Part shown: positions 7,763 through 33,000 of the stretch, piece after piece | How positions within the stretch are numbered: the stretch's first letter is position 1 | How the letters are laid out: each line of letters opens with the position of its first letter | Assembly: GCF_000003605.2 (NCBI RefSeq) | Contig: NW_003132361.1 | Coordinates: 67,286 to 101,343 of the forward strand | Origin: Saccoglossus kowalevskii | Taxonomy: Eukaryota > Hemichordata > Enteropneusta > Harrimaniidae | DNA length: 34,058 nucleotides | Direction: 5' to 3' | Position numbers and translations under genes: made by a program | The notes under the pieces: model-generated | What the model was told of the DNA's origin: nothing | The model's database searches: none | The model's input: only the letters and a program-made list of their open reading frames with translations

Positions 7763-8891
7763 TGTATAGGGTCCACCTGCCACAATTTCAGTATGCAAAT
7801 TTCACGAGAACAATAACTACAATTCCCGGAGGGTCAGCGGTCATGCACACGCGTACTCCGTACTTTAATAGCATATTCCATTTGAAGGAAGGGACATGAT
7901 TCCCTTCCCGATTACGAATATCGTGCATAACTCTTGCCAATACTCACTAAATGCCTACGAAAGTATGATAATTTCCACAAAATATATATCTATTGATGAT
8001 TGTGGCTGTGAGTTTCAAGTCAGATAAAACCCTCATGTTGGGATTCTTCTGGGGTATAGTTTCAGACCCCAGATAAAATGTCGAAGCCTCGAAACGAGGG
8101 CGTTATCCTAAACGCAGTCTCTAGGACGCAATTATAGGTCGTTACAAGGACATTGACTCAATTGACCAAGTTTATCGCTGACACCATTTTCCACTGACTC
8201 TTTCTGGTTTGGCGCTATTCGTTTAATCGTGTTTACTTTGACTGACACTGAGTAACTAGCTGGATTGATGAGCTGGACGCTTTCCTGGAATGTACAGTCA
8301 CTAACGTTCGTGGCTGTTTCGTCTCCGTTTACTTTTCAAGCAATGAAACCCAACAACATAGCCACCGCTTCAATATCAAAAGGAAAAGTGAATCTCTTGA
8401 AAATATAAAGTAATCGTACGGTTTTATTCAACTATGATCACGATTCAATGTTCAAATATTTGTACATTGGTCTCTGTTAGAACAGCGTGCAGTGGTCCCG
8501 TTCTTACCACTTAACGTCCAATGGGAGAGAGCCGTAAAATCCACACAGAGATGCCGCTCATTGTACTGGTTGGCTTCAGTCTGATGGGTTTGGTTACCAT
8601 GGTGCCGGTGAGCTCTCTAGAGTAATAGATGACAACTACTCTAGTCATTACATACATTGTATCCATACTTAACCTCCTAACATCACATCGATCAATATGC
8701 ACAGACATGTATATTTGTGATCGACGTTTACAGGGAACCCCTCCCACCATCCTAGTTATTCTCTCGGACCTCTTTACGAACGGCACGGTACCGCTGATTA
8801 CACGGGGAAGAGTTCGCTGGCCGGCGGCCGGGTAGGAATTACCGCCTCCAAATACAAACAAAAATCTGTATTTTGAACAACATCTATCCGT

Positions 8892-18030: not shown

Positions 18031-18141
18031 TCACACAGAGTTACCACGACTGAATGAAGCACGCCGGCGTATGGTGCCAACTATGCGCCAAAAGAAGTTC
18101 TCACCATCATCTGGTCTGTTAACCGAAGCGTAGCGAATAAC
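18031..18141 (-). CDS. bcl2l11-like: BIM/BMF-like gene, last coding exon
   Basis: It encodes residues 242-277 and a TGA stop at 18033-18031. The exon starts in phase 0 with VIRYASVNRPDD and ends NFFWRIVGTIRRRASFSRGN followed by two residues. It has no long hydrophobic membrane anchor. The aromatic-hydrophobic cluster FFWRIVGTI resembles the WWQILLFLHNL cluster of BMF more than the LLRYIVRLVW end of BIM. The polar end (RGN) also echoes BMF (EENRNG). The RRRAS sequence at 266-270 fits the PKA consensus RRxS; this is prediction only. The exon would anchor the protein weakly or through protein partners rather than by a transmembrane segment. Confidence 0.82.
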   Translation of the reverse strand, partial: VIRYASVNRPDDGENFFWRIVGTIRRRASFSRGNSV

Positions 18142-21100
18142 CTACAAAGGAAAAATATAAAATCAGTTGTAAACTTAAAAAAGAATCCCAAAATACCATT
18201 GTCACTCAAAAAACTTTGATATAAACTTTTTTATTAATTTTTCAATTTTTAACAAGGTTTATTGATTATTATGTGACCTCAGTGTGATGAGTAGATTATA
18301 TATAAAAATGTGTTTTTACCAGTGAAAATTTGAATAGTTTTTATAAAACTTACTCTTAAACACTCAAATTAGCAAACCCCTGACATAGAATAATTTGATT
18401 TTTGTATGACTTAACACAGAAAAGACATGTTGAGCATTACAGACTGAGTGTTAATCACTTTAATATATTGATGAAGTCAATTAATTCAGACAAAAAAATG
18501 AGTAAACAAAATCTAAAATAGCAACAGACATATTTATTGATAACTATTGTGGTGTTGAAATAATAAACTTTCCTGGGATTCACAACAAATTACTGAAAAG
18601 CCACAGAAAAGTAACCTAATAAGAGTTGAAAATGTCTTTATCACATTCAACACATTGGCCACATTTAATTTGTTTAATGCACTGTACCACAGTCTTTGAA
18701 TACATTAATTATTTTAAGTAAAATCACAAAATTGTCTCCAATGGCCAGCCAAGACCATTTTGGTACTTTAATTAAACACAGATTGTTTATTCCCCCATTT
18801 TGAGTTACACTAACCACACTAAATTTGACATATCAATACACTCAAGTGACATATACCATCATAACAAAAATAGGTATTCTAACGCATCAAATACAGTAGT
18901 CCCAACTGATATAGCTTTTGTTTTTGTTAGAAATTAGTTCATTACTAAAATTGATACAAGTGGCAGGGATTTTAGCATACATCAAATAAACACAAAATAA
19001 TCCTGTTTATTATTACATACAACATATTTTCCATCAAAAAGGCATCGACAGATTACACAGTTGGTAATGTGATGTAATAAACATGCATCCCACAGTTCGT
19101 AATGTGTTCGTAAACCTCTTAAAGTTATCGTTTTAAAAAGCAAAACTAAATAGTTTCTCCTGTTACTTTGAAAAATACCGAAAATTTCAATTGGTTGTTG
19201 AATAACTTTTAAACACTATATTGCAAGAGATATTGAATGATGTATTATTAATATTGACATTCTTGAAACATCTTTAATACATATTAATTCATTGAAAGAA
19301 GTATTTCTAGCTAGTATAACTTAGTTCTGCAACATGATAGAATATACAGCTAATAAATCAAGAGAAGTCATATAAAATATTAAAAAAGATAAAAAGCATT
19401 TCTGTTTTTAAAAAACATGTACAAATCATAAAAATTGAAAATTACGATTTACCCTGACCTGCTTTTCCGCTGCACCCATCATTCAATCAACTCAACTACC
19501 TTTATATTCCACTCATATCCTAGTTTATGTCAGGGTCCCTGCAGCATATTTTGTCTTGTTCAATGCAACACTCAAGAATAATAGTGATATACACGGACTA
19601 AAAGACACTCAAATTTGGGTGAAATCAATAATTTTTTTTTTATTCTGAGACAGGTCATTACTAAGTTGAATGGTTTTAATTTAACTGATTTAACAATTTT
19701 AAATGTAAAAGAAAATGACCATTGTTCAATCAGACACAAACTGTGGAAGATTTCACACTGACTGAATGATAGATGCAATATGGTAGAATAATATTATTGA
19801 AAATATACTTAAAATAGATATAGACAAGCAGTTGAGAATGGAAATCAAAATAATATACAGTTTAATTAAACTTTTCAGTCAGAATTTAATTAGATGAAAA
19901 TTTTAACAAAATATCATGTTTTTCTCGCTAGAACAATCCAGTAGACAAAATAGGATGCCCTGGATATCCAGGGACTTATATGACGTGCTTGTCTGTAATG
20001 ACCACACCCGCCTGCAAACCCAACCCAGTTTAAATATTTATTCTCATTTCCATTTGTTATTTGCCAACAATTCTTGACCTATATCATTATCATTATCAAT
20101 ATGCAGTTTATTTCATCTTATTAATACTATATTTAGTAATTGTATTTATTTTTATATCAATCCAACGTTGATGACATTGAAGACAACTATTTGAACTTGT
20201 CCAAATCATCAAAACAAAAACAAGATGTCAATGAATTGCAGTACAAAAAGTTCTTATTTCATAGAATTCTCCAGAAACCAGTCTACAGTTCAGTTCAACC
20301 AAAAAATAAATAAAATGATGTTACCTATGATACAACCTTCAAGGTGACCTTGGCAAATGTCAAAATATTAAAATCAATTCAAGACAGAAGTAGGAATACA
20401 TTATCACAGAGCTTGTCGAACAATTGTATTTTCTGTTCTTAAGAGATGGAAATTTTGATGTTACGGTAATCTATTTTCAAGTGCCATCTTATTACATTCA
20501 GAATGAGCCAGATGTCGGAAAAACATAATATCGTTTTTTAACTCTCCTTTTAAGTAGTAAACAACGAACCTCAAGAATATACAATATGGAAATATACAAA
20601 TTTGTTTTCTTTGAGATGGGAAAATATAAGTCCCTTATGTTTTAACCAAAAGAAATTGATGACAGAGCTGAAAATATGGCCCCATGCNNNNNNNNNNNNN
20701 NNNNNNNNNNNNNNNNNNNNNNNNNNNNNNNNNNNNNNNNNNNNNNNNNNNNNNNNNNNNNNNNNNNNNNNNNNNNNNNNNNNNNNNNNNNNNNNNNNNN
20801 NNNNNNNNNNNNNNNNNNNNNNNNNNNNNNNNNNNNNNNNNNNNNNNNNNNNNNNNNNNNNNNNNNNNNNNNNNNNNNNNNNNNNNNNNNNNNNNNNNNN
20901 NNNNNNNNNNNNNNNNNNNNNNNNNNNNNNNNNNNNNNNNNNNNNNNNNNNNNNNNNNNNNNNNNNNNNNNNNNNNNNNNNNNNNNNNNNNNNNNNNNNN
21001 NNNNNNNAAAGAAAGACAACAGACAGTTGAAATTTCAAATCAAATTTCAAATCAAATCAAATCAAATCACCATTTTCATTACATGAGTGCATTCATCTCA

Positions 21101-24100
21101 TCTTACAAGTTGTAAACTGAGCTGAGTGCTCTTAGATAAGTTAACTTGGACCAAGTTACATTAGAGAACCATTTTAAACATAATTACCCTGTGACATACA
21201 CATATCATTCAATAAAACAACAACACTTTCAAATTTGACAGTTTTTGGTCTAGAATTTCATACAATGTAAATATGTAAATTTTTGTATTTTTGAAAATTA
21301 ACAAATTTTTCACAGAAAAGCTATATATAGCATGTGCGGCTCAGGTGATTGCTTAATCTGAGCTCAGAAAAAGGTGTCTATTTCTCAATCTGCAATGCAA
21401 AGATGGTTGATTTTGCCTGAGAATTTAAAAATAGAAAATTTGATGACAAAAACATAGTGAACAGTGGCTGCAATACATACATACACAGAACTCAACATTA
21501 GTAAATCACATTCATTGTTTGATATATATTTTTAAAATCACCAAAATGTATCTGAAAAATGATATAGTTCAGTTGTGAGGGCAGTACATTTACAGGTACC
21601 TTTTAAAATCAAAGAAAGCTCAAAAAGAATTCCCATGTGCATATGTGCATCTAAAAATAAAAATTTTAAAATATAACTGCAAGCAATGATTAGGGTGGTT
21701 TCAAGTAGCTATGGTTTAACAATTATAAATATTTAATGAAATAATGACCATATATGATGACTTGATATTTTGGTCATACAACATTATAGCACCAGTTGCA
21801 TGTTATCTGCAGCAGTACTTAAGATATTACAGTTATTAAGTCATTAGTAAGCAAAAACAGGTCTATGCAATATTCCAAGACATCTATATACTCCATTTCA
21901 TTGAAATATATTGAATAATACATGAGAAACAAGTGAAAATGCTTCAAGTTGGCTAATTAATAAGCAAATTAGGTGATTAATATGCACAGGTTTTTACCCA
22001 AAACTAATCAGTTTTGTGCAAAGTCCTAGAGCATCTATGTACCACGTCATAATGAAACATAATGCTTAGTATCAGCGGGAAAGCAAAAAGCAAAAATTTT
22101 ATAATTATGCAAATTAGGTAATTAATATGTGAGGATATTACTCCAAAACTTATCAGCTCTGTACATTGTCCTATGACATCTATGTATCAAGCATCATTGT
22201 AATGTGATGATTAGTACTTGAGATATCAGTGAAAAAGCTGAAAATTAGCTAATCATTATGCAAATTAGGTAATTATTATGCATGGATTAAAACATAAACC
22301 ATTGTCCTAGAGCATTTATGTAGCAAGTTCCATTAAAATCCAATGAATGGTTCTTTAGATATCAGTAGAACAGTCATTGAACAGCTAAAAATTAGCTAAT
22401 TATCATGCAAATTAGGTAATTAATATGTATGGATTTAAACTAAAACCTAATGAAACATGCGATTTAGCCCAGAGCATCTGTACATCAAGTTTAAAAAAAA
22501 ACCAACATACGGTTCTTGAGAAATCAGTGGAACAGATGGACACACACAGACAGACTAACTGCAAAAACTCCCATTGTGTGCTTTGCACACACGAGTCAAA
22601 ATCTACAACACATGTTTTGACAGTATTCAGTGAAACTAATTGAGAAATTACAAAAAGGTAACAGATATAGCAACCCATCTCTCATATTATTGGTGGCAGG
22701 GACAGACACAAATTTTTTTTTACCTGGTTCGATTCTTAACAAAAAATAAAAATAAAAGAAAACTTAGAAAGAATTTCCGTTTGCTGAGAGTGTTTCATAA
22801 TATTGAAAATTAATTCAAAATTTAATATGGCTTGGCGATTAATATTGGTCTGCTATTAGAGATGAACAACATGAAAACAATGTGATCCACAGTATTAAAG
22901 TTTATAAGAATTTTTGAAATATAAAATATTGGTTAATAAAATTAGATAATCAATATACATCATTTTCTACATTAAACTAATCACGTCTGCGGGTTATCCT
23001 GGGCATCTGTACCAAATTCATTGAAATGCATATTATGTAAATTAGGTATGTGCTTTGCCCCAGGGCACCTATGTACTAAATTTCATTGAAATATAATTAG
23101 TAATTGAGATATCCATAGAAAGCCAACAATTAGCTGCCAGTCATCCATCTTGGATTGAATCAGTAAACCACTGCATGTGCATATGTCCCAGATAAAGTAC
23201 TAGGCACATGCAAAGAATAAACAGATTTGGTCCACAAGGTTCTGAAATATGACTCCGAAACCAACATGTCGTTTTTGAGATATCAGGGAATGGACAGACA
23301 GAAACACACACACATGCAGACAGACACACATGCAGACAGACTAACTGCAAAGACTCAAAAAGGATATCAAATTAGTGACCCCACAATATAAGATTTATTG
23401 AACTTGTGTAGCTATTTTCATTTGTTCTTCACCAACAACAAGTAAAAATACTACATTTGTTTAATAAATCTAATATTGCAGAGTAACTCATTAGATATCT
23501 TGTGTTTATTTTCACCCTACAAAATGATAAACATAAGTGGGTTATATTCCCAAAGTGGATAAACAGCACCCTTAATATACCCATAAAAATACCTGATAAG
23601 CATGGCAACCCCGAATCCTATATATATACAGTGATATGTGCTTTACTGTACGTAAATCAAGTATCATAAAACTGACCTCTTGACTATTTAATGTGTAATT
23701 AATCACTTGCAAATTGTAACATTAACAAGTGAAAGTGAACTCACCCTACATTCTTGATAAGAATGGTGAAATTCATCACTAATGCGACGCAATTCTCTGC
23801 CAACTTCAATCTCTGGTCTTGCAGCTTCTCCCTCAGAATGCGATCTATTCCGGAACTCTAGTAAATCAGGCAGTGGATAAACAGATCTTGATTCGGTGGA
23901 CATTGAGAATGATCTCCAACGGTCTCCTGAAAATCACAAACAAAATATGCTAGTCAATATCAATATAGTAAATGCAATTTTGAATTGTAAACTTTTAAAT
24001 CACAGTTGTACTGAGAGGAAATTAAGAGTTAATTACCTAGGTTAATAAGGTACATTAAAAAACAGAGTGAATTACATGGTTAATAATTTGCATTAAAAAA

Positions 24101-27100
24101 GTATAACTGTAAAATGTAAAATATCATACAAATAAAATACAAATACAAATTTGGAATTATAGGATTCCAAAGAAATAGTTAAAAAAAATAAAAATACAAC
24201 AACAATACTGTCAATTATGTCACCATGTGCAGATATCTACCAAGCGTAAGTTTAATATTTGACACTTGAAAGACAGCCAATTAAACCATTTAAAAATGAT
24301 TCCTAGGGCAGAAAAAATTACCATTATATCAAAATATTTCTTCAGGATTAATAAAATTAATAACATTTCACACAAAAGTGATTATAAGAAACATACTGTG
24401 TCATGCAAAGAATGTCAGACAACTACTGTCAACACCTCTGAAAACAAAAGTAGGTAGAAATCCCATTAGTTACATATCTCAATAATATTAATACAGCGTT
24501 ATACAGACCCCTACTGGGCACAAGCATTTAGTACCAACATGCTTGATATGACCTTCAGAATCATTTTACAGCAAGGGTGTTAAAACAATGAATTATAAAC
24601 AAAAATGATGTTTATCAATATGTAACGGGTTTAGCAATTGTGTTCAATCTTAGCTTTTTACCATCATACACTAGCTTATTTATCTGAAGATAAACTGTCA
24701 TTATTCATTATGGTATAATAAAGTTACCCTAGTTTTAAAACTCAGGGTTCAGCACTATTTTTTTAATTTCAAAAGACAGATACAGCCCCACAGGATACTT
24801 ATAAATGTCCAACCTTCATCAATAATTATTTGTTTTCAAATGATTGATTATTGTTTTGCTTGGTAAAAAGGAATGACCTTTGTTATTGTCATGGCAACTA
24901 GACTAAAGTTACAATATTATTATTGTGGAACTTTAAGATGTTCAAAAGCTTACTATTAAATGTACCGTTCAACCAGAATGAGTTAAAATAAAACAGCTCT
25001 AAAGTATTTATTGTTTTTTTCAACTGTGTAATCAATTGTGCTAGTATGAAGGCTGGTTATAATGGTTGGCTAGCTTCAATATATGAACATTGGTTTAAAA
25101 CTACTGTGGAGAAAATCTTATAAGTAGCTTATTTGTCAAGGTACTTTGAAAAGTGAACACAAAAAAGTCAGAGCCGTCAAAATAGACGTCATTGTTGCTA
25201 TTATGGAACACAAATATGACTGTGCATATGTTAATGAGAATATTGCCATGGTAACTGTGATGTCATTTGCACCTGCAACAGTTTGTAAGTCTGTCTGGCC
25301 AAATGAAATTTGACTTGCATTATTATGGTTATTAATATTTTATACTTAAACTGGTGGAAAAGTTATGCAATTCACTTTGTTTATCCTGAATCATTAATAC
25401 TCACTATTGTAAGATAATGTGTGTAACTCTTTTGTTATGTAATACTCTTACTCATTCATCTACATATCCAATCTCAAAGAAGACAGTCCCTCATCTCAAA
25501 GTATCATTCATTATAATGTCCTACTGTAAAATACTTTATTTTAGCTGCAATTAATTTTCGCTGAAGAAACTTTTTTATGGAATTTATTTTCACAAATTTT
25601 TCATGAGTTGAATGTAAAATATAAGAAAAAAGGTATATTTGCTGAATTTTATTTTCACTGAATCATTTCTTCAGCGAAAATAGCGAAAACTAATTCCAAG
25701 CAAAAATAAAGTATTTTACAGTATACAATTGGATAAAATCACCATACCACATAAATTTGCATATATTATCATATATTTACTTAAATTAACATGCATTTAT
25801 TTAACTTAAAAATATTCACATGAATTATCATAAATTTACATAAAATATACGTTTTGACAAAATTAACCTTGTCCTAGTTTCTCTGATAGCATGTGACCAA
25901 ACTAACAGTAATGTACTTTTAGATATTCAAACTAACCCACAATTATATTGGAAGCCAAGGAGGAAATTATCATATTGGCAATACAATGTTTTGTAGATGG
26001 AGGGTCTTTATTGGCAATGAGTTTACATTATGTTAGTAAAAATACTTTGATAATTTTTTTTATTGTGACAAATCACTCCATTTCAAGCTGTCTGAAACAC
26101 CGACAGGATAATAAAGGGCTTGGAAAAAGGGTCTAGAACACTTAGAATATAGGATGTATTACAGTCAAGAATTTAATTTCTTACTTCTGAGGATTGAAAA
26201 AAAGAATTGCTGAATGAGAAGGGATAGAGAGAGAGGGTAGAAGTTGGGAGGGTAAGCATTTATGACTTACTCATACTTAATAATAGTATAGAGATTCACT
26301 CAGGCTTAGTAATACCTTTAGTTTTATTGAATGAATCAGATAAACTATATAAAAGAAATATTGAGTAATCATTTTAAGATGCTAAATTCAAATGCAATGT
26401 CCTAAAATATATAACTAAATTAAAAAATTATATTTTCTGTAATCCACTTGTTTGAGAGAAATAACAGTTGTTACCATTCTGAGTATGTCTTTGTAGATAG
26501 TCTAGTTCAGTTTAATTTCATACACCGCCCAGTTTGTTACGAAGTAATAATTGGACTTTCACCACCTGGTAACAAGAGCCTTATGAAATAAATTTCAATT
26601 GAAAACAATTTCAGTGATTACTAAGTCTCAGTCTGGAAAATACACAGATTGAATTTGATATTCTGGTTTTCAAAATAACTGTCAACTTTATAGCTGGTGT
26701 AGCCAGGGTGATTTGTCTGAGTCCTTGAAAGGTTAGTCCTAAATATATTGACTTAAATATTGATGTCATTTGCAATCTTGTTACTTCCCAGTTATAATCC
26801 TAATATACAAAGAAAACAGCATGAAGATACCTTGCTACATTGCATGTTCTCATCAATTATTGAAAACATGTTCCCGAATCCTTGTACATTTTGACTCTAT
26901 GCAACAATAGATCATTTAATTTATATTTGAATGCAACAGTAAACTGTATTAATTTAAAATTCGAAAAAACATGTTAGTCAGAAAAAAACATGTAATTTTG
27001 TAGCAGTGAAAATTTGACAGGGAGTCACAGCTTCTATTATCATACATCAATAAAGAATAAATTTTAAAAACACTACATTTTTTTGACATTTTCCTGCATG

Positions 27101-29477
27101 GATGGTACCATAAAATAAATGACAAATAAAATAATAACAGCACTGTATTATTTCTTGTACTTAAAATAATACTATCCACAACATTTTTAAATTTAATTAT
27201 ACACAGATTATTATTACTTTAAAACAAAAATTGTCCAATGAGATATTGGCCACATATGATTTTTAATTAGGTAGGAGGCAATAATACAATTTAATAATAT
27301 TGTTTAAAAGTCGTGAGTTGTTTACACTTGATAACACATAGACTATTAACCTGTTCACTACTGGAACTTGACAGCCACAATTTGGTTCCACTTTTCAATT
27401 CATAGCGTAATTTTTGACAGAAAGTGTCAAAATTTTATGCTTCAAATATCCCAAAATAGAGTTTATGAGCAATGAACAAAAATGGCATGAAACAAGAGAA
27501 TTTTAGAATTTGACAATGATGATAACATCCTGCACCTTTTTATGCATTTTTGTACAATTTCTGCATCATTAGATCAGATGGACATAACTTGCTATCTGAT
27601 ACAGATCTTGATGTATGCGAGTCCCATAATTTCTCAAATCTCATAACTCACTAAAGCTGTAGTTGGTCAGTCACACTGATACTAACACTTTTTCATTGTT
27701 ATTTAATACCAGTGTGTATTTATAGGACTCAAACATTAGAAATCAAACACAAAGTGTATTATTGCCAGTTCTATATCCCAATGCGAACAAACCAGCAACC
27801 CAACCAGCAGTATTGCAGTAAAGCTCATGGGTTCAAATTTAACATTTTGTGATGGTAAGCTGATATCATTATTGCTATTTTGTTTTGTTTTGCAAAAAAC
27901 TGAGCTATATTGCTATACTTCTGGTTGGGTTGTTTTGTTTAAAGTAAATACTATGTAAATACTATCATTTTATCTGCCAAGAATTTAGTGCACATTTTAA
28001 TATATTGTTTTTGTAATATTTTGTAATTTCTCAAGGGGATGTTTACTTTATTTTTTTGTTTCCAGTAAAATGGACAAAAGTTGATTAAGTACTATCCATA
28101 ATCTTATTACTTGACTTGATACTGTACTATTTGGACACTGAATCATTTATTCCCAGTATCATGTTCAGTGATTATTTGATTATTACATGAATTCTCAATA
28201 CAGAACTGCACATTAATAAGCATATGGAAAACATGCATAATAAAAATACATTTTTTTCTCTGCATAAACTGTGTATTCCAGTCTCTGGGGACTCAAATAG
28301 AAGCTAAAGAATATAATAGCTCCAAGAAATCAGTACAATCATATCAAGAAACTATATTTTATTTTCATAGATAAAAGTACTCTAAACACAATAAATCACA
28401 CGAAACCAGTTTGATGAGTACCGGGGTATACCTTGAATTGTGCCAATTTGGTGAACCACATCAGGATTATTTGAATAGTCTAGTGACATTATTATACTTG
28501 CTAACAAATAAAAAATGAGTGACAGTCGATAGACTAAACCGTATTGATTCATGGTTGTCTAAAACATAACAGTCACAGAAAGCCTGCAGGGATTGAAGAG
28601 CTAAATCCAACACCACATATCGTGCTCATTCCAAGATATTGATTAAGTAATAAATAACACTAGAAGGGGTCGGAGGGTCATTTTTTTTTCAAGGATACTT
28701 TCTTCCTCAATGTCCACTACTGAATGATCCTGACTATATTTTACTGATTCCTCCTTTTTTTTGTTACTATGCATACGACACAATTTGTAATTATAATTAC
28801 CTGCATTAATTAATTAATTGATTAATTAATTATTTTACTGAACATTTCTTGCCAGCATGTGTTGTAAACTGTGTAAACTGACTCCTAATATTTTGGAGTT
28901 CTTCAACATTGCATTATTAAGCTTTGAATAAACAATTATTATATTATTACCAGTATATTATATTAAATTGCCTGTATATTAAAATAAATATACATGCCAT
29001 ATTAGGTAATTTTACTGATACAATTCCTCATACCATACCCATAGCAAATATTCAAATGAGAACTAATTAGAGTTAAACATATATTTACAAATACAACTTT
29101 ATATTCACAAATACAAATTTAGTCAAAGTTTAATTTTACAGTACACTTATACACTCTTTACACAATTACAGATTTAAGTACTCATGCTGAGTCCAACATA
29201 CACGCATAAACAGCCAATTAACAACAAACCACCAACATTTAATATTCACCTTTAATGGAAGGAAATTATGGAATATAAAACTGAGTTGTTGTATATCTCT
29301 GCTTACTGTGAAGAAGTATTGTTCAGAAAATATTATCAAAATATTTTCTAGTTTTTGTACCACTTTTTTGATGAAATACGAAAAATATAGTACATATTTC
29401 AATTCACAAAATGAGAAAACTAAACATTTGTGAAAACTAATACTATCTATACATACCTGGAACGTTAGGAAGTAAAA

Positions 29478-29514
<37 letters not shown>

Positions 29515-29997
29515 TTCACCGACGTCAAGGTCACAATCAAGATCTTCATCACTGTTGTTATCCCTATCATCAACATTAAGGTGACTATCTGCATGAGGTG
29601 TCTGTGTTGATACTGTGTGGCATGATATTGGACTTCTTTCACATTTGTAACACATACTGCTCAGTGATGGTGACGAGAAGCGCCGAATCATAAACGACCC
29701 CTGACTAAATGCTGGCGAGGCTGACATCCCATCGAATGTGCTGCAGTTTCGTGTAACAGGCGCTGGGATGGAGATGGGAGCTGAGGTAACGACAGGAACT
29801 GCCATATTGTCGGGAAATCTATTGGAATGTGTGCCGTCTTCAGGAATGCTGGCCATTTGCGGGTTACTTTCCTGCATGGTGGTGTACTTATACCGATTAT
29901 ATCCGACGCTACTTGCTTTGTCTTCACTCACACTAAGTAAATTACCAACTGCACTTGCTTGTTTGTTGTGTGTGACCTCCACTGAACTTTCGTTCAT
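18031..29997 (-). CDS. bcl2l11-like: BH3-only pro-apoptotic protein, BIM/BMF type (three-exon CDS span)
   Basis: Joining 29997-29457, 23926-23745 and 18141-18031 gives 834 nt, 277 residues plus TGA. Vertebrate BIM-EL and BMF are near 190 residues. In order: a polar N-terminus; a basic serine segment MIRRFSSPSLSS (103-114); RSP (121-123); STQTP (130-134), the dynein-light-chain-type motif of BIM and BMF; an acidic stretch with D12 (162-173); RPEIEVGRELRRISDEF (217-233), a BH3 helix with the core L226, I229, D231 and F233; and a short tail with FFWRIVG (257-263). The family binds the groove of BCL-2-type survival proteins, and activates BAX/BAK, at the mitochondrial outer membrane; the dynein-light-chain motif tethers BIM and BMF to motor complexes. 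The BH3 block matches vertebrate BIM at 11 of 16 aligned positions from memory. With a BMF-like tail, it may descend from the common ancestor of both. Expression is untested. Confidence 0.88.
20688..21007. other. Assembly gap (320 N)
   Basis: Unknown sequence lies in the last intron. Open frames spanning it are artefacts. The gap is followed directly by a (AATCA)n-like tract at 21031-21068, so a low-complexity repeat may have caused it. Confidence 0.99.
21031..21068 (+). repeat. Low-complexity (AATCA/CAAAT)n tract
   Basis: Imperfect pentanucleotide repetition next to the gap. Confidence 0.8.
21790..22601 (+). repeat. Helitron-like (HINE-type) repeat with about 147-bp tandem units, copy 2
   Basis: The anchor GCAAATTAGG occurs at 21964, 22109, 22260 and 22407, spacings of 145, 151 and 147. 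Each unit also carries an 'AGAGCATCTATGTA'-like block, an 'ATTGAAAT/AATCCAATGAA' block, a GATATCAGTG block and a 'AAAATTAGCTAAT' block. The array ends in a CA-rich stretch and a perfect hairpin, TGTGTGC-TTT-GCACACA (22575-22591), then GAGTCAAAA. Non-autonomous Helentron relatives in invertebrates commonly combine tandem core units with a terminal hairpin. That class is an inference from structure; no protein is encoded. Confidence 0.65.
22575..22591. repeat. Terminal hairpin of the tandem-unit repeat
   Basis: A 7-bp perfect stem around TTT, 10 nt from the inferred end. The matching hairpin in copy 1 has a longer imperfect stem (1963-1994). Its preservation in both copies suggests a functional end rather than chance. 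Confidence 0.6.
22990..23360 (+). repeat. Decayed copy 3 of the same repeat family
   Basis: It has the shared 'TTTGCCCCAGGGCACCTATGTA' and 'GAGATATC' blocks, a CA/GACA-rich stretch in which an 18-nt 'ACACACATGCAGACAGAC' unit is repeated, and an ACTAACTGCAAAGACTC end. The hairpin has been lost. Confidence 0.5.
23745..23926 (-). CDS. bcl2l11-like: BIM/BMF-like gene, BH3 exon
   Basis: It begins after TTTTCAG with GA, which completes the Gly codon split by the phase-1 intron, and ends AGG|GTGAGT in phase 0. It encodes residues 181-241. An N-terminal part has basic-serine sites (RWRSFS and a RNRSHS-type sequence). The BH3 helix follows at 217-233, and the exon ends at R241. The core agrees with the BH3 rule: L226, I229 and F233 on the hydrophobic face and D231 as the invariant acidic residue. 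The small residue before the Asp, Gly in BIM, is Ser230 here; Ser or Ala at this place is tolerated in other BH3 proteins. Vertebrate BIM also has its BH3 in a separate exon, ending in Arg before Val as here. Retention of the next intron would add 13 residues after R241 before a stop. Confidence 0.9.
24028..24105 (+). repeat. Diverged 39-bp tandem duplication
   Basis: GTTAATTACC...GGTTAATAAGGTACATTAAAAAA and GTGAATTACATGGTTAATAATTTGCATTAAAAAA are adjacent copies. The sequence is intronic. Confidence 0.55.
25522..25723. mobile_element. MITE, 202 bp, with perfect 21-bp terminal inverted repeats
   Basis: The left end TACTGTAAAATACTTTATTTT (25522-25542) is the exact reverse complement of 25703-25723. 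Further in, TTTTCGCTGAAGAAA (25555-25569) and its complement at 25666-25680 continue the symmetry, with a small duplication inside the right arm. Both ends begin and end with TA, in keeping with a TA target site as in Tc1/mariner-type elements. There is no coding capacity, so it is non-autonomous. It lies in an intron of the BH3-only gene. Confidence 0.8.
28785..28833 (+). repeat. AT-rich palindrome and (TAAT)n microsatellite
   Basis: GTAATTATAATTAC (a 14-bp palindrome) is followed by TTAATTAATTAATTGATTAATTAATT. ATTA cores match homeodomain sites, but such AT repeats match by composition alone. Confidence 0.7.
29457..29997 (-). CDS. bcl2l11-like: BIM/BMF-like gene, first coding exon
   Basis: It encodes residues 1-180 and the first base of codon 181. 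The ATG at 29997-29995 has A at -3, a favourable context. Only 9 nt upstream (AG at 30008-30007) is a strong acceptor preceded by a T-rich tract, so this looks like the first coding but not the first transcribed exon, as in vertebrate BIM. The exon ends CCAG|GTATGT, a good donor, in phase 1. It carries the regulatory half of the protein: the basic serine-rich segment, RSP, the STQTP motif and the acidic poly-Asp run. Vertebrate BIM has a comparable order (RRSS segment, RSP, KSTQTP), where kinases control stability and dynein light chain binds. If the following intron were retained, the frame would stop after GMYR, giving a product without BH3. Confidence 0.88.
29479..29514 (-). repeat. Coding microsatellite (GAT)n encoding D12
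   Basis: About twelve GAT codons in an unbroken run, close to the exon's donor site. It encodes a poly-aspartate stretch after a diffuse acidic region. Runs of a single codon are prone to length change, so alleles may differ in the number of Asp residues. Confidence 0.9.
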
Positions 29998-30006: not shown

Positions 30007-33000
30007 CTGTTGTGAGACAAAAAAAGAATGGAAATTAATTATTAGTTAAGTTAAGCACAATATAATGTTTAGAAACCCTGCTGGCCATCCTTGACAGTTT
30101 ATAGCCTTGGGTACCACTCTGTGACAGCTATAATTGTTGTAAGGTGAGAAACACAAAAGGTGTTGCAAACACCATCCTGCAGGGTAAAGTACAACCATGG
30201 AACAAACAATTAAAATTATTAACTAGATGTACTTCGTCAACAAATGGAAAAAAACATTACAGCAAAGCAAAGTCAACAAACCAACAGACATACTGAATTC
30301 CAATCCATTTATTCACAAGTTTCACAAGAAGTCATGGTCATCATCGAAATGATTCAGCATTCTATTTAATACTAGATGACTAGACATGACATATCAGTCT
30401 ATGATGCAATCATTAATAATAATTATGTAAATTAATCTAGATGATATTATACCAATTATTGAAACATTTTCAGAGAATAAAAATAAGTGACACTGTCTAA
30501 TTCAATAGCAGACAAACGAATTTGCCTCGGCAAAACAAAAATGCTGCTGCAGCTGCGTTCAAGTAATAAATGAGACTCAACATCACCATGGAAACACTAA
30601 CATACATTTATTTCAAACTTGTCACGGTCTAGCATGTTGAGGAGATGTCAACAGTGCACCAGTACCAATATAATATTCATAGCAAATAATATGACTCAAT
30701 TTGGAGCAATAATTTCCAAAGGGATCATTTTTAAATAGCCGCAAGCACACCATTCGACAAGTATTAGAAGTGGATGAAATTTATAATTTATTTATTCAAT
30801 TGAGAAATGGAGAAAACATCACTAAATTTAAACTATTTTGAAACTGCCAAGTTAGGTTATATGTAATAATTACATATCCATGTTACAGGGCACAAAAGGT
30901 GATTAACATTAGTTTCAGTCAAATGTACATGGATAAATACATATTTATTATCGTTTTCATCGATAGAATGATTCTGATCAGTTTTATAGATTTTTTTACC
31001 ATTATTTTTATTTTAACAAATCACCTGCTGAAAGCTACATGGATATTCCAAATGAATGAACTGTCACTGACAGCAGGACAGCATGTGTTCAATTCATTTA
31101 GTCTGGTATTAATTATTTCATAAAATTTACATATTTTAATTATTATTTTATGCACACCTTATGGTGCAAATTTTATAAGCATTGTCTTTATTGAAAAAAA
31201 TGCAGTAATGTCTTAGGCTAGGTCATGCAGAGTACAAGGTTAGCCTGACCTTACATTTATAAATAAAGCCATTAGGTACATGTATATTAATAGGAATTTC
31301 AATGTTGCATACTGCACACAGTAAAAAGTAAACAGAGACATGCACCAAGTGACTGCCAGAGACATAAATAGAAACATCACATACATTCTGACTTATACCA
31401 AATCTTACTCAGAAAGACACACAGAAACAAAATTTACAATGACCTTTAAAATATGCCACTGATGCATGTTACAACATGATCTTAGTAATTATATGCGAGC
31501 CTGTATGAAAACAACTCGCCAGGGTGATCTGAAAGTGTTGCCTTGACAATTTAAAACTCATGAACAGGATTTCTATGTATATACAAGCTACCAATAAAAC
31601 AGCTGACTGACACACAGAATAAATCTGTTCACATATAAAAACAAACAATGACTTAGGGGGGGGGGGCAGTACTGAATGAACACTATGGTTTTTGAACAGC
31701 AGTCTTCATGCATCACAAACCACCATAGATAAACAAAAAAATATCTTGAAGACATGAAAACCACACTCTAACACTAAGTTAAGGTATAAATACCTGCAAA
31801 GTCCAGCATAATAGTTTGAGATTCTGATTACAAGTTAGTCACACAAATCAAAGAGAATGACTATACACACTGAGTACAGCCTGCCTAGACAAAGAATATG
31901 GAAATAGCTCAAATCTCATTGTGCTTTGGAAAAGCCCAAACATCAGGGTAAAAATAGGCATGACATCAGTGTTATTGACAGACACATACATGGACTTTCA
32001 GACCATGCCCACTTTTGACATGACCTCCCATCATACATTTCACCATTCCAGATTAAAACTGATAATGAATTTTCTTTTTCAAGCCCAGTCTACTGCCATC
32101 TAGAGGCTGCAAACTGAGTGATTCGACAATAACTATTCCATCACTCGTTGTCGTTGTCAGGTTGGAATAACTATTAATAGACACCTGAAGAGTTAGCATA
32201 AATCTCTAGCTTGAATGCTTAATGGAAGAGCCGACAAGCTCTTCTATCCACTGCATGCCTGTTAAACACGTCTTCAAAGAAAAAAAGTTTGAAAGCCATT
32301 TTTTGTTCATGTATACTAGCATAGATAGGAACTTCACACAGTATGGCAACAAGAAAAAGATCAGAGGTTTATTCCTCAATAATATAGAGGTTAAGTAGGC
32401 AATGATATGAACACTACTAGTAACATGTCCTAATAGAACTACAACAGGTTAGCTACCACTGCCAATAATTGTTAGTTTGCCCTCTAATAGGAAGAGGGTG
32501 ACTGGTTTTCTAAGAGTAACTCTCCTGAATGGTTTTAACAAACTATCCTCTTTCTTATTTACAACTGTGCTGCTTTCAATAGATCTCATGATAGCATCTG
32601 CCCCGTCGACCACTTTCTGTATTATTTCTTTAAATTGCTAGTGCAATATACATTTTAATTTTATAATTCCATTTCCCAAGTTCTTTTTTTAATTGCTATC
32701 CCCTAAATTATAGTATTACTGCTGTAAGGGAATAGTTAGCATTCTTTGTTTAATTATCAGTTGATATCCAAATTAACACAATTTTACTCACCAAAATATT
32801 GTGCAACATTTTGCATATTTTTATTAATTTTTATTTAATTTCTTTGTTAATTTTAAACCAAATGGACATTAATTGCTAGTACCTGCAAGTTTCAATCAAA
32901 ATGTTTAGAAAAATAAGGAAAATGGGTTTTGTTGCCACCTGTCTCATTATAATAACTTCTCAGACCTCCCAAACAAACATACAATCTTATCAAAGTTTTC

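Follow-up and report, generated by a model that had tools for sequence, protein, structure and literature searches.

BH3-only proteins help determine cell death, and their origin is obscure because the motif that they conserve is short. Potential BH3-only proteins have been found in echinoderms, hemichordates and cephalochordates with human Bim, Bad and Bmf as seeds, and the accessible text of that 2022 paper describes candidates of 373 residues in S. purpuratus, 350 residues in A. planci and 118 residues in S. japonicus (PMC8998228). The acorn worm Saccoglossus kowalevskii is among the abbreviations in the legend of its BH3 figure. In molluscs, according to the accessible text of another paper, BH3-only members are yet to be identified (PMC8917759). 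Judging from these sources, the kind of gene that we describe here is already known, and the BH3 segment of the acorn-worm gene has probably been shown already (PMC8998228). The preliminary description of this DNA stressed how hard such genes are to find outside vertebrates, a rarity that was overstated in view of the 2022 candidates. Neither a gene-level description nor the composite of BIM and BAD features described below was met in our literature search, which covered sources mostly short of full text, and no paper on a shared origin of BIM and BAD was recognised in it.

We analyzed a stretch of 34,058 nucleotides of the S. kowalevskii genome (hereafter the window; positions are those of the window). 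Its minus strand carries a gene model of three exons, which join into a single 277-residue frame with one stop, at the end. The features are as follows.

29997-29457, minus strand: exon 1 coding sequence, 541 nt, ATG at 29997, donor CAG/gtatgt; residues 1-180 and the first base of codon 181
29596-29610, minus strand: STQTP, LC8 (dynein light chain)-type motif, residues 130-134, in exon 1
29478-29518, minus strand: poly-Asp run of exon 1, a GAT trinucleotide repeat of period 3 and 13.7 copies
23927-29456, minus strand: intron 1, 5530 bases
23926-23745, minus strand: exon 2, 182 nt, acceptor ttttcag/GAGACC, donor AGG/gtgagt, phase 1 in and 0 out
23835-23852, minus strand: RNRSHS (RxRxxS) with Ser211, 19 residues before Ser230 of the BH3
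23769-23819, minus strand: BH3 block RPEIEVGRELRRISDEF, residues 217-233, in exon 2
18142-23744, minus strand: intron 2, 5603 bases, with 320 N at 20688-21007
18141-18031, minus strand: exon 3, 111 nt including the stop, with the hydrophobic-cationic tail FFWRIVGTIRRRASFSRG

Both introns are of the GT-AG type and the junction phases, 1 and then 0, match, so the exons, coordinates, phases and frame given in the preliminary description stand. Exon 1 lies within the longest N-free stop-to-stop reading frame of the window (200 aa); as a yardstick for this exon, 3893 stretches of 540 nt were drawn at random from the window, and none was open in the tested frame. The GC content of exons 1, 2 and 3 is 0.447, 0.434 and 0.495, and that of the two introns is 0.290 and 0.300. 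When codon usage was scored with a training set of 1501 codons from five reading frames of the same assembly, the true frame was the top-scoring one for exons 1 and 2, but not for exon 3. The region searched holds 13 phase-0 acceptor candidates with a pyrimidine tract, that of exon 3 among them; it belongs to the four of these 13 that open a tail of at least 20 residues, and of these four it has the best tract (14 of 17 pyrimidines). The GC content of this exon exceeds that of all 1013 stretches of equal length sampled in intron 2, and is reached by 230 of 6704 stretches across the whole window. Exon 3 is the least certain part of the gene model.

The gene had also been called complete, a claim that we do not retain since the 5' end is unproved. 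A splice acceptor ends at 30007, 9 bases upstream of the ATG, and is followed by the in-frame and stop-free ATT AAT AGA ATG, implying that a non-coding exon upstream is likely and a coding one possible. The poly-Asp run is a GAT microsatellite, and its length may differ among animals. By eye, intron 2 contains multiple copies of a motif like gcaaattaggtaattaatatg between 21900 and 22600, and a phrase near 22540 recurs near 23340, resembling an interspersed repeat.

Exon 2 carries kinase-type motifs and the BH3. The BH3 motif, that is L-x4-D with flanking hydrophobic residues, is present with Val222, Leu226, Ile229, Ser230, Asp231 and Phe233. In a Pfam search of the 277-residue product, the sole profile above its cut-off was PF08945 (Bclx_interact, the BIM-type BH3 family), which matched the BH3 exon at 39 bits, the cut-off being 25 (E 7.4e-10). 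The BAD profile (PF10514) followed with 18.2 bits, below its cut-off of 28.2, and after it came four unrelated families, every one below cut-off. Neither Bim_N (PF06773) nor the BMF profile (PF15185) matched the product at E up to 1; the BCL-2 fold (PF00452) was likewise not detected at E up to 1 in this product, whose 5' end is possibly longer. Because one profile each for BIM, BMF and BAD thus gave no match above its cut-off, we do not regard the product as BIM, BMF or BAD proper. Human BIM, BMF and BAD sequences served as yardsticks, and each was matched by its own Pfam family: human BIM gave 69.9 bits on PF06773, human BAD gave 15.5 bits on PF08945, and human BMF was not among the PF08945 matches.

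Alignment of exon 2 with the corresponding parts of the human proteins gave scores of 66 for BIM, 65 for BAD and 48 for BMF, each equalled in none of 1000 shuffles, and the alignment with human BAD ran without a gap over 35 residues. When 79 residues comprising the BH3 and the tail were searched against the PDB at E up to 10, the 24 matches consisted of 19 BIM, 3 BAD and 2 BMF sequences, with best bit scores of 22.1, 15.3 and 14.7, respectively. The full-length product, searched at E up to 1, matched 33 sequences (16 sigma factors, 16 BIM peptides and 1 other), and bacterial sigma factors filled the first 15 rows; they and the other protein matched through the acidic run. The preliminary wording was that the BH3 is very close to vertebrate BIM; the BH3 exon is just as close to human BAD (65 vs 66). 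The assignment to a BIM/BMF type is right in that this is an invertebrate gene of BH3-only type with BIM as its best PDB match, and needs correction in view of the lower BMF score (48) and of the unmatched Bim_N and BMF profiles. Profile searches had been expected to rank both the BH3 block and the STQTP motif with BIM/BMF; the block does rank with BIM, BAD and BMF, whereas STQTP is covered by no profile searched.

AlphaFold2, run on the single sequence, gave a mean pLDDT of 40.6 with no residue at 70 or above; the model has a single long helix, which lies at the BH3 (residues 218-234), besides a few short strands. Such a low-confidence model with a BH3 helix would fit a disordered protein, although it is not a proof of disorder. 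A disordered protein could carry a BH3-like helix by chance, or the model could be mis-spliced, and the gene would then not be BH3-only at all. The motifs are indeed short, the loose BH3 core (L...[GAS]DE[FIL]) arose in 246 of 100000 composition shuffles of the protein, and exon 3 is a weak call. Nevertheless, we regard this explanation as very improbable, given the profile E-value, the matching splice phases, the GC content of the exons and an LC8-type motif that precedes the BH3, an order also seen in human BIM and BMF. From its sequence features, the locus is with high probability a BH3-only gene that belongs with BIM, BMF and BAD, wherever inside that group it is to be placed.

The LC8-type motif STQTP, noted in the preliminary description and found here at residues 130-134, is predicted from the sequence only. 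TQT appeared in 1088 of 100000 composition shuffles of the protein, and the fuller pattern [SA]TQT[PL] in 20 of 100000. The 36 residues preceding TQTP aligned with human BIM to a degree that only 20 of 1000 shuffles matched, while with human BMF the corresponding count was 477 of 1000, which is the chance level. Over residues 1-146, shuffles did as well in 22 of 1000 cases against BIM, 818 against BMF and 923 against BAD; alignment against shuffles thus gave no likeness of this region to human BMF or BAD. The tail encoded by exon 3 was also compared with those of BIM, BMF and BAD, and shuffles did as well in 427, 408 and 621 of 1000 cases, respectively. The tail is hydrophobic-cationic in type, its similarity to the three tails is not significant, and homology with any of them is not supported; among 3000 open stretches drawn at random, 483 had a hydrophobic-cationic 12-mer. 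The similarities of the product outside the BH3 core are modest and not specific.

One-to-one orthology with BIM, or with BIM and BMF alone, along the lines of the preliminary BIM/BMF-type assignment, would explain several of these results, with the BAD-like residues arising by chance or by convergence in a constrained BH3. The BIM-type profile alone is above cut-off, BIM gave the best PDB match (22.1 bits vs 15.3 for BAD and 14.7 for BMF), RPEI and STQTP are common to the product and human BIM, and the stretch preceding TQTP aligns with BIM. On the other hand, the core GRELRRxSDEF, the RxRxxS at the BAD distance and the gap-free BAD alignment over 35 residues do not fit such an orthologue, and Bim_N is unmatched. 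We consider this possibility rather unlikely.

The resemblance to BAD lies in the BH3 core and the serines upstream of it. The core GRELRRISDEF is BAD-like, and Ser230 occupies the position of BAD Ser118. Kinase-type sites are predicted at Ser188, Ser211 (both RxRxxS) and Ser230 (RRxS), spaced by 23 and 19 residues, where human BAD Ser75, Ser99 and Ser118 are spaced by 24 and 19; the second spacing (Ser211-Ser230 vs Ser99-Ser118) is equal and the first differs by one. According to the accessible text of PMC6877530, these human serines correspond to mouse Ser112, Ser136 and Ser155, and phosphorylation of Ser118 by PKA hinders binding to BCL-xL. When the 36-residue flank was shuffled 200000 times, RxRxxS fell at the position of Ser211 in 658 cases. 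The product has RRx[ST] at three sites (108, 230 and 270) and human BIM has it once, and the proline at +2 of the 14-3-3 sites of BAD is missing in the product (RSHSEG).

Alignments of the flank preceding the BH3 gave a mixed picture. Between -28 and -12 from the conserved Leu, the numbers of equally good shuffles among 20000 were 323 for BAD, 1252 for BMF and 6117 for BIM; between -28 and -4 they were 273 for BIM, 400 for BMF and 1523 for BAD. Two longer flanks reached at best 1088 of 20000. Because 12 combinations were tried, these values are suggestive and not a proof.

An orthologue of BAD that gained an LC8-type motif would instead account for the GRELRRxSDEF core and for Ser211 and Ser230 being spaced as in BAD, and the BAD profile does find this locus as its single match in the assembly. 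That match, however, is below cut-off both in the product (18.2 bits against 28.2) and genome-wide (E 1.11), the BIM-type profile is far stronger, and human BAD has neither RPEI nor the TQT motif. We therefore give this explanation little credence. The BIM-orthologue and BAD-orthologue explanations both overlap with our main reading, because the confidence that we place in membership of the BIM/BMF/BAD group covers the whole group.

The arrangement of motifs suggests how such a protein might work. A mostly disordered protein would be parked through LC8 binding at STQTP, and phosphorylation at the RxRxxS/RRxS serines 188, 211 and 230, the last of them inside the BH3, would block binding. Stress or the loss of survival signals may free the protein; the freed BH3 would then form a helix and insert Val222, Leu226, Ile229, Phe233 and Asp231 into the groove of BCL-2-like proteins, where Asp231 would pair with the BH1 arginine. 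Binding to the groove would set off apoptosis, and the hydrophobic-cationic tail would aid membrane attachment.

The genome was searched for additional copies and for possible partners in the 572-Mb assembly of 4830 contigs; the searches were run exon by exon and the best candidates alone were scored. PF08945, PF10514 and exon 2, each used as the query, led to this locus and to no other in the assembly. The only match to the BAD profile was the BH3-only locus itself (E 1.11, below cut-off), and the BMF profile returned nothing at E up to 10. The gene is apparently single-copy. The BCL-2 family profile PF00452 matched at five places in the assembly, and the two best reading frames carry WGR in BH1 and GGW in BH2, which implies that a groove for the BH3 is probably present. 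The mitochondrial contig of the assembly (C4830, 17037 bases) has COX1 on the strand opposite to that of most genes, nd5 adjacent to cob and a tRNA-Lys with anticodon UUU; judged against vertebrate sequences, AAA stands at conserved lysines, ATA at conserved isoleucines and AGA at conserved serines. The same features (AUA as Ile, AAA as Lys, AGA as Ser, tRNA-Lys UUU, an inverted COX1 and nd5 beside cob) are described for S. kowalevskii (PMC2697986, PMC3121625).

The right end of the window is also the end of its contig (C2396). Pfam searches of the neighbours covered 7 of the 456 reading frames of at least 45 residues in the window and the remainder of the contig, and 2 of the 7 were without a match. 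The same contig carries a gene with SH2 and SOCS-box domains and pieces of WDHD1 (L007:6593-8071, minus; L008:82-396, plus; L010:4598-4831 and 7955-8137, both plus). The former is a gene that we take to be SOCS4/5-like; in human, WDHD1 and SOCS4 are adjacent on 14q22. A reading frame of 451 residues at L011:2710-4062 on the minus strand (about 42.7-44.1 kb of the contig) encodes a death effector domain followed by NACHT; this second gene of cell-death type stands about 41 kb away from the BH3-only locus. Within the window, 252-556 on the plus strand is a probable last exon of another gene; its acceptor cag ends at 251, and its RGG-rich C-terminus, which is without a Pfam match, ends in a stop. 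Elsewhere on the contig, L008:1500-4200 contains many overlapping reading frames and is G+C-rich and retroelement-like by eye, and a 524-residue reading frame at L010:8400-9971 on the minus strand opens with a short repeated unit (TLLNAAMHSM..), hence a tandem repeat in the DNA.

The BIM, BMF and BAD features found together in this gene led us to consider, tentatively, that the three vertebrate genes came from one gene through the early vertebrate genome duplications and that the acorn-worm gene keeps the undivided state. The ancestral protein would have combined an LC8 tether, which BIM and BMF retained, with a kinase-controlled BH3 and an AKT-type site upstream of it, which BAD retained, and the vertebrate daughters would have split the two controls between them. 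This reading is weakened by the BMF flank value (400 of 20000), which is near those of BIM and BAD, and by the occurrence of RRx[ST] at three sites. In human, BMF, BUB1B and PLCB2 lie at 15q15, BIM and BUB1 at 2q13, and BAD and PLCB3 at 11q13; BUB1 is thus close to BIM and its paralogue is close to BMF. In S. kowalevskii, BUB1 is absent from the contig of the window and sits on another contig (C568). According to the accessible text of PMC3560075, one paralogon is made up of parts of human chromosomes 14, 20 and, to a lesser extent, 11 and 19, and the CHRM1/3/5 paralogon, which has a chromosome 11 member, comprises 15 families including MERTK and PYG in that of PMC6298421; neither passage names BIM, BMF or BAD. 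An invertebrate gene with both BIM-type and BAD-type control would open a shared origin of the three human death regulators to testing, and would suggest that tethering and phospho-control were once joined in a single sensor.

Compared with vertebrate BIM (BCL2L11), the acorn-worm gene shares the BH3 block RPEI....ELRRI.DEF, the LC8-type motif STQTP on the N-terminal side of that block and a match to the BIM-type Pfam profile that exceeds the cut-off. Presumably the two also share an intron directly behind the BH3. It differs from BIM in the Ser within the BH3 and the RxRxxS upstream of it, both of which are BAD features, and in having no Bim_N match, a long acidic run and a tail that is not alignable. 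With vertebrate BAD it shares GRELRR(I/M)SDEF, the FRxRSxS upstream at equal distance and three predicted kinase-type serines (spacing 23/19 vs 24/19 in BAD), whereas the worm product stays below the BAD profile cut-off, is without the +2 proline at RSHS and carries STQTP and RPEI, both missing from human BAD. The likeness to vertebrate BMF consists of a TQT LC8-type motif ahead of the BH3 and the BH3 alignment score of 48, but the BMF profile has no match in the worm product, and none in the assembly at E up to 10. The echinoderm candidates of PMC8998228, compared here by their description in the accessible text, resemble the acorn-worm gene in having the BH3 on one exon and in being predicted as disordered, while the word dynein appears nowhere in the main text of that paper. 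Against these known systems, the composite of BIM and BAD features in an apparently single-copy gene is possibly the new element, and the gene is real, ordinary in kind and informative in detail.
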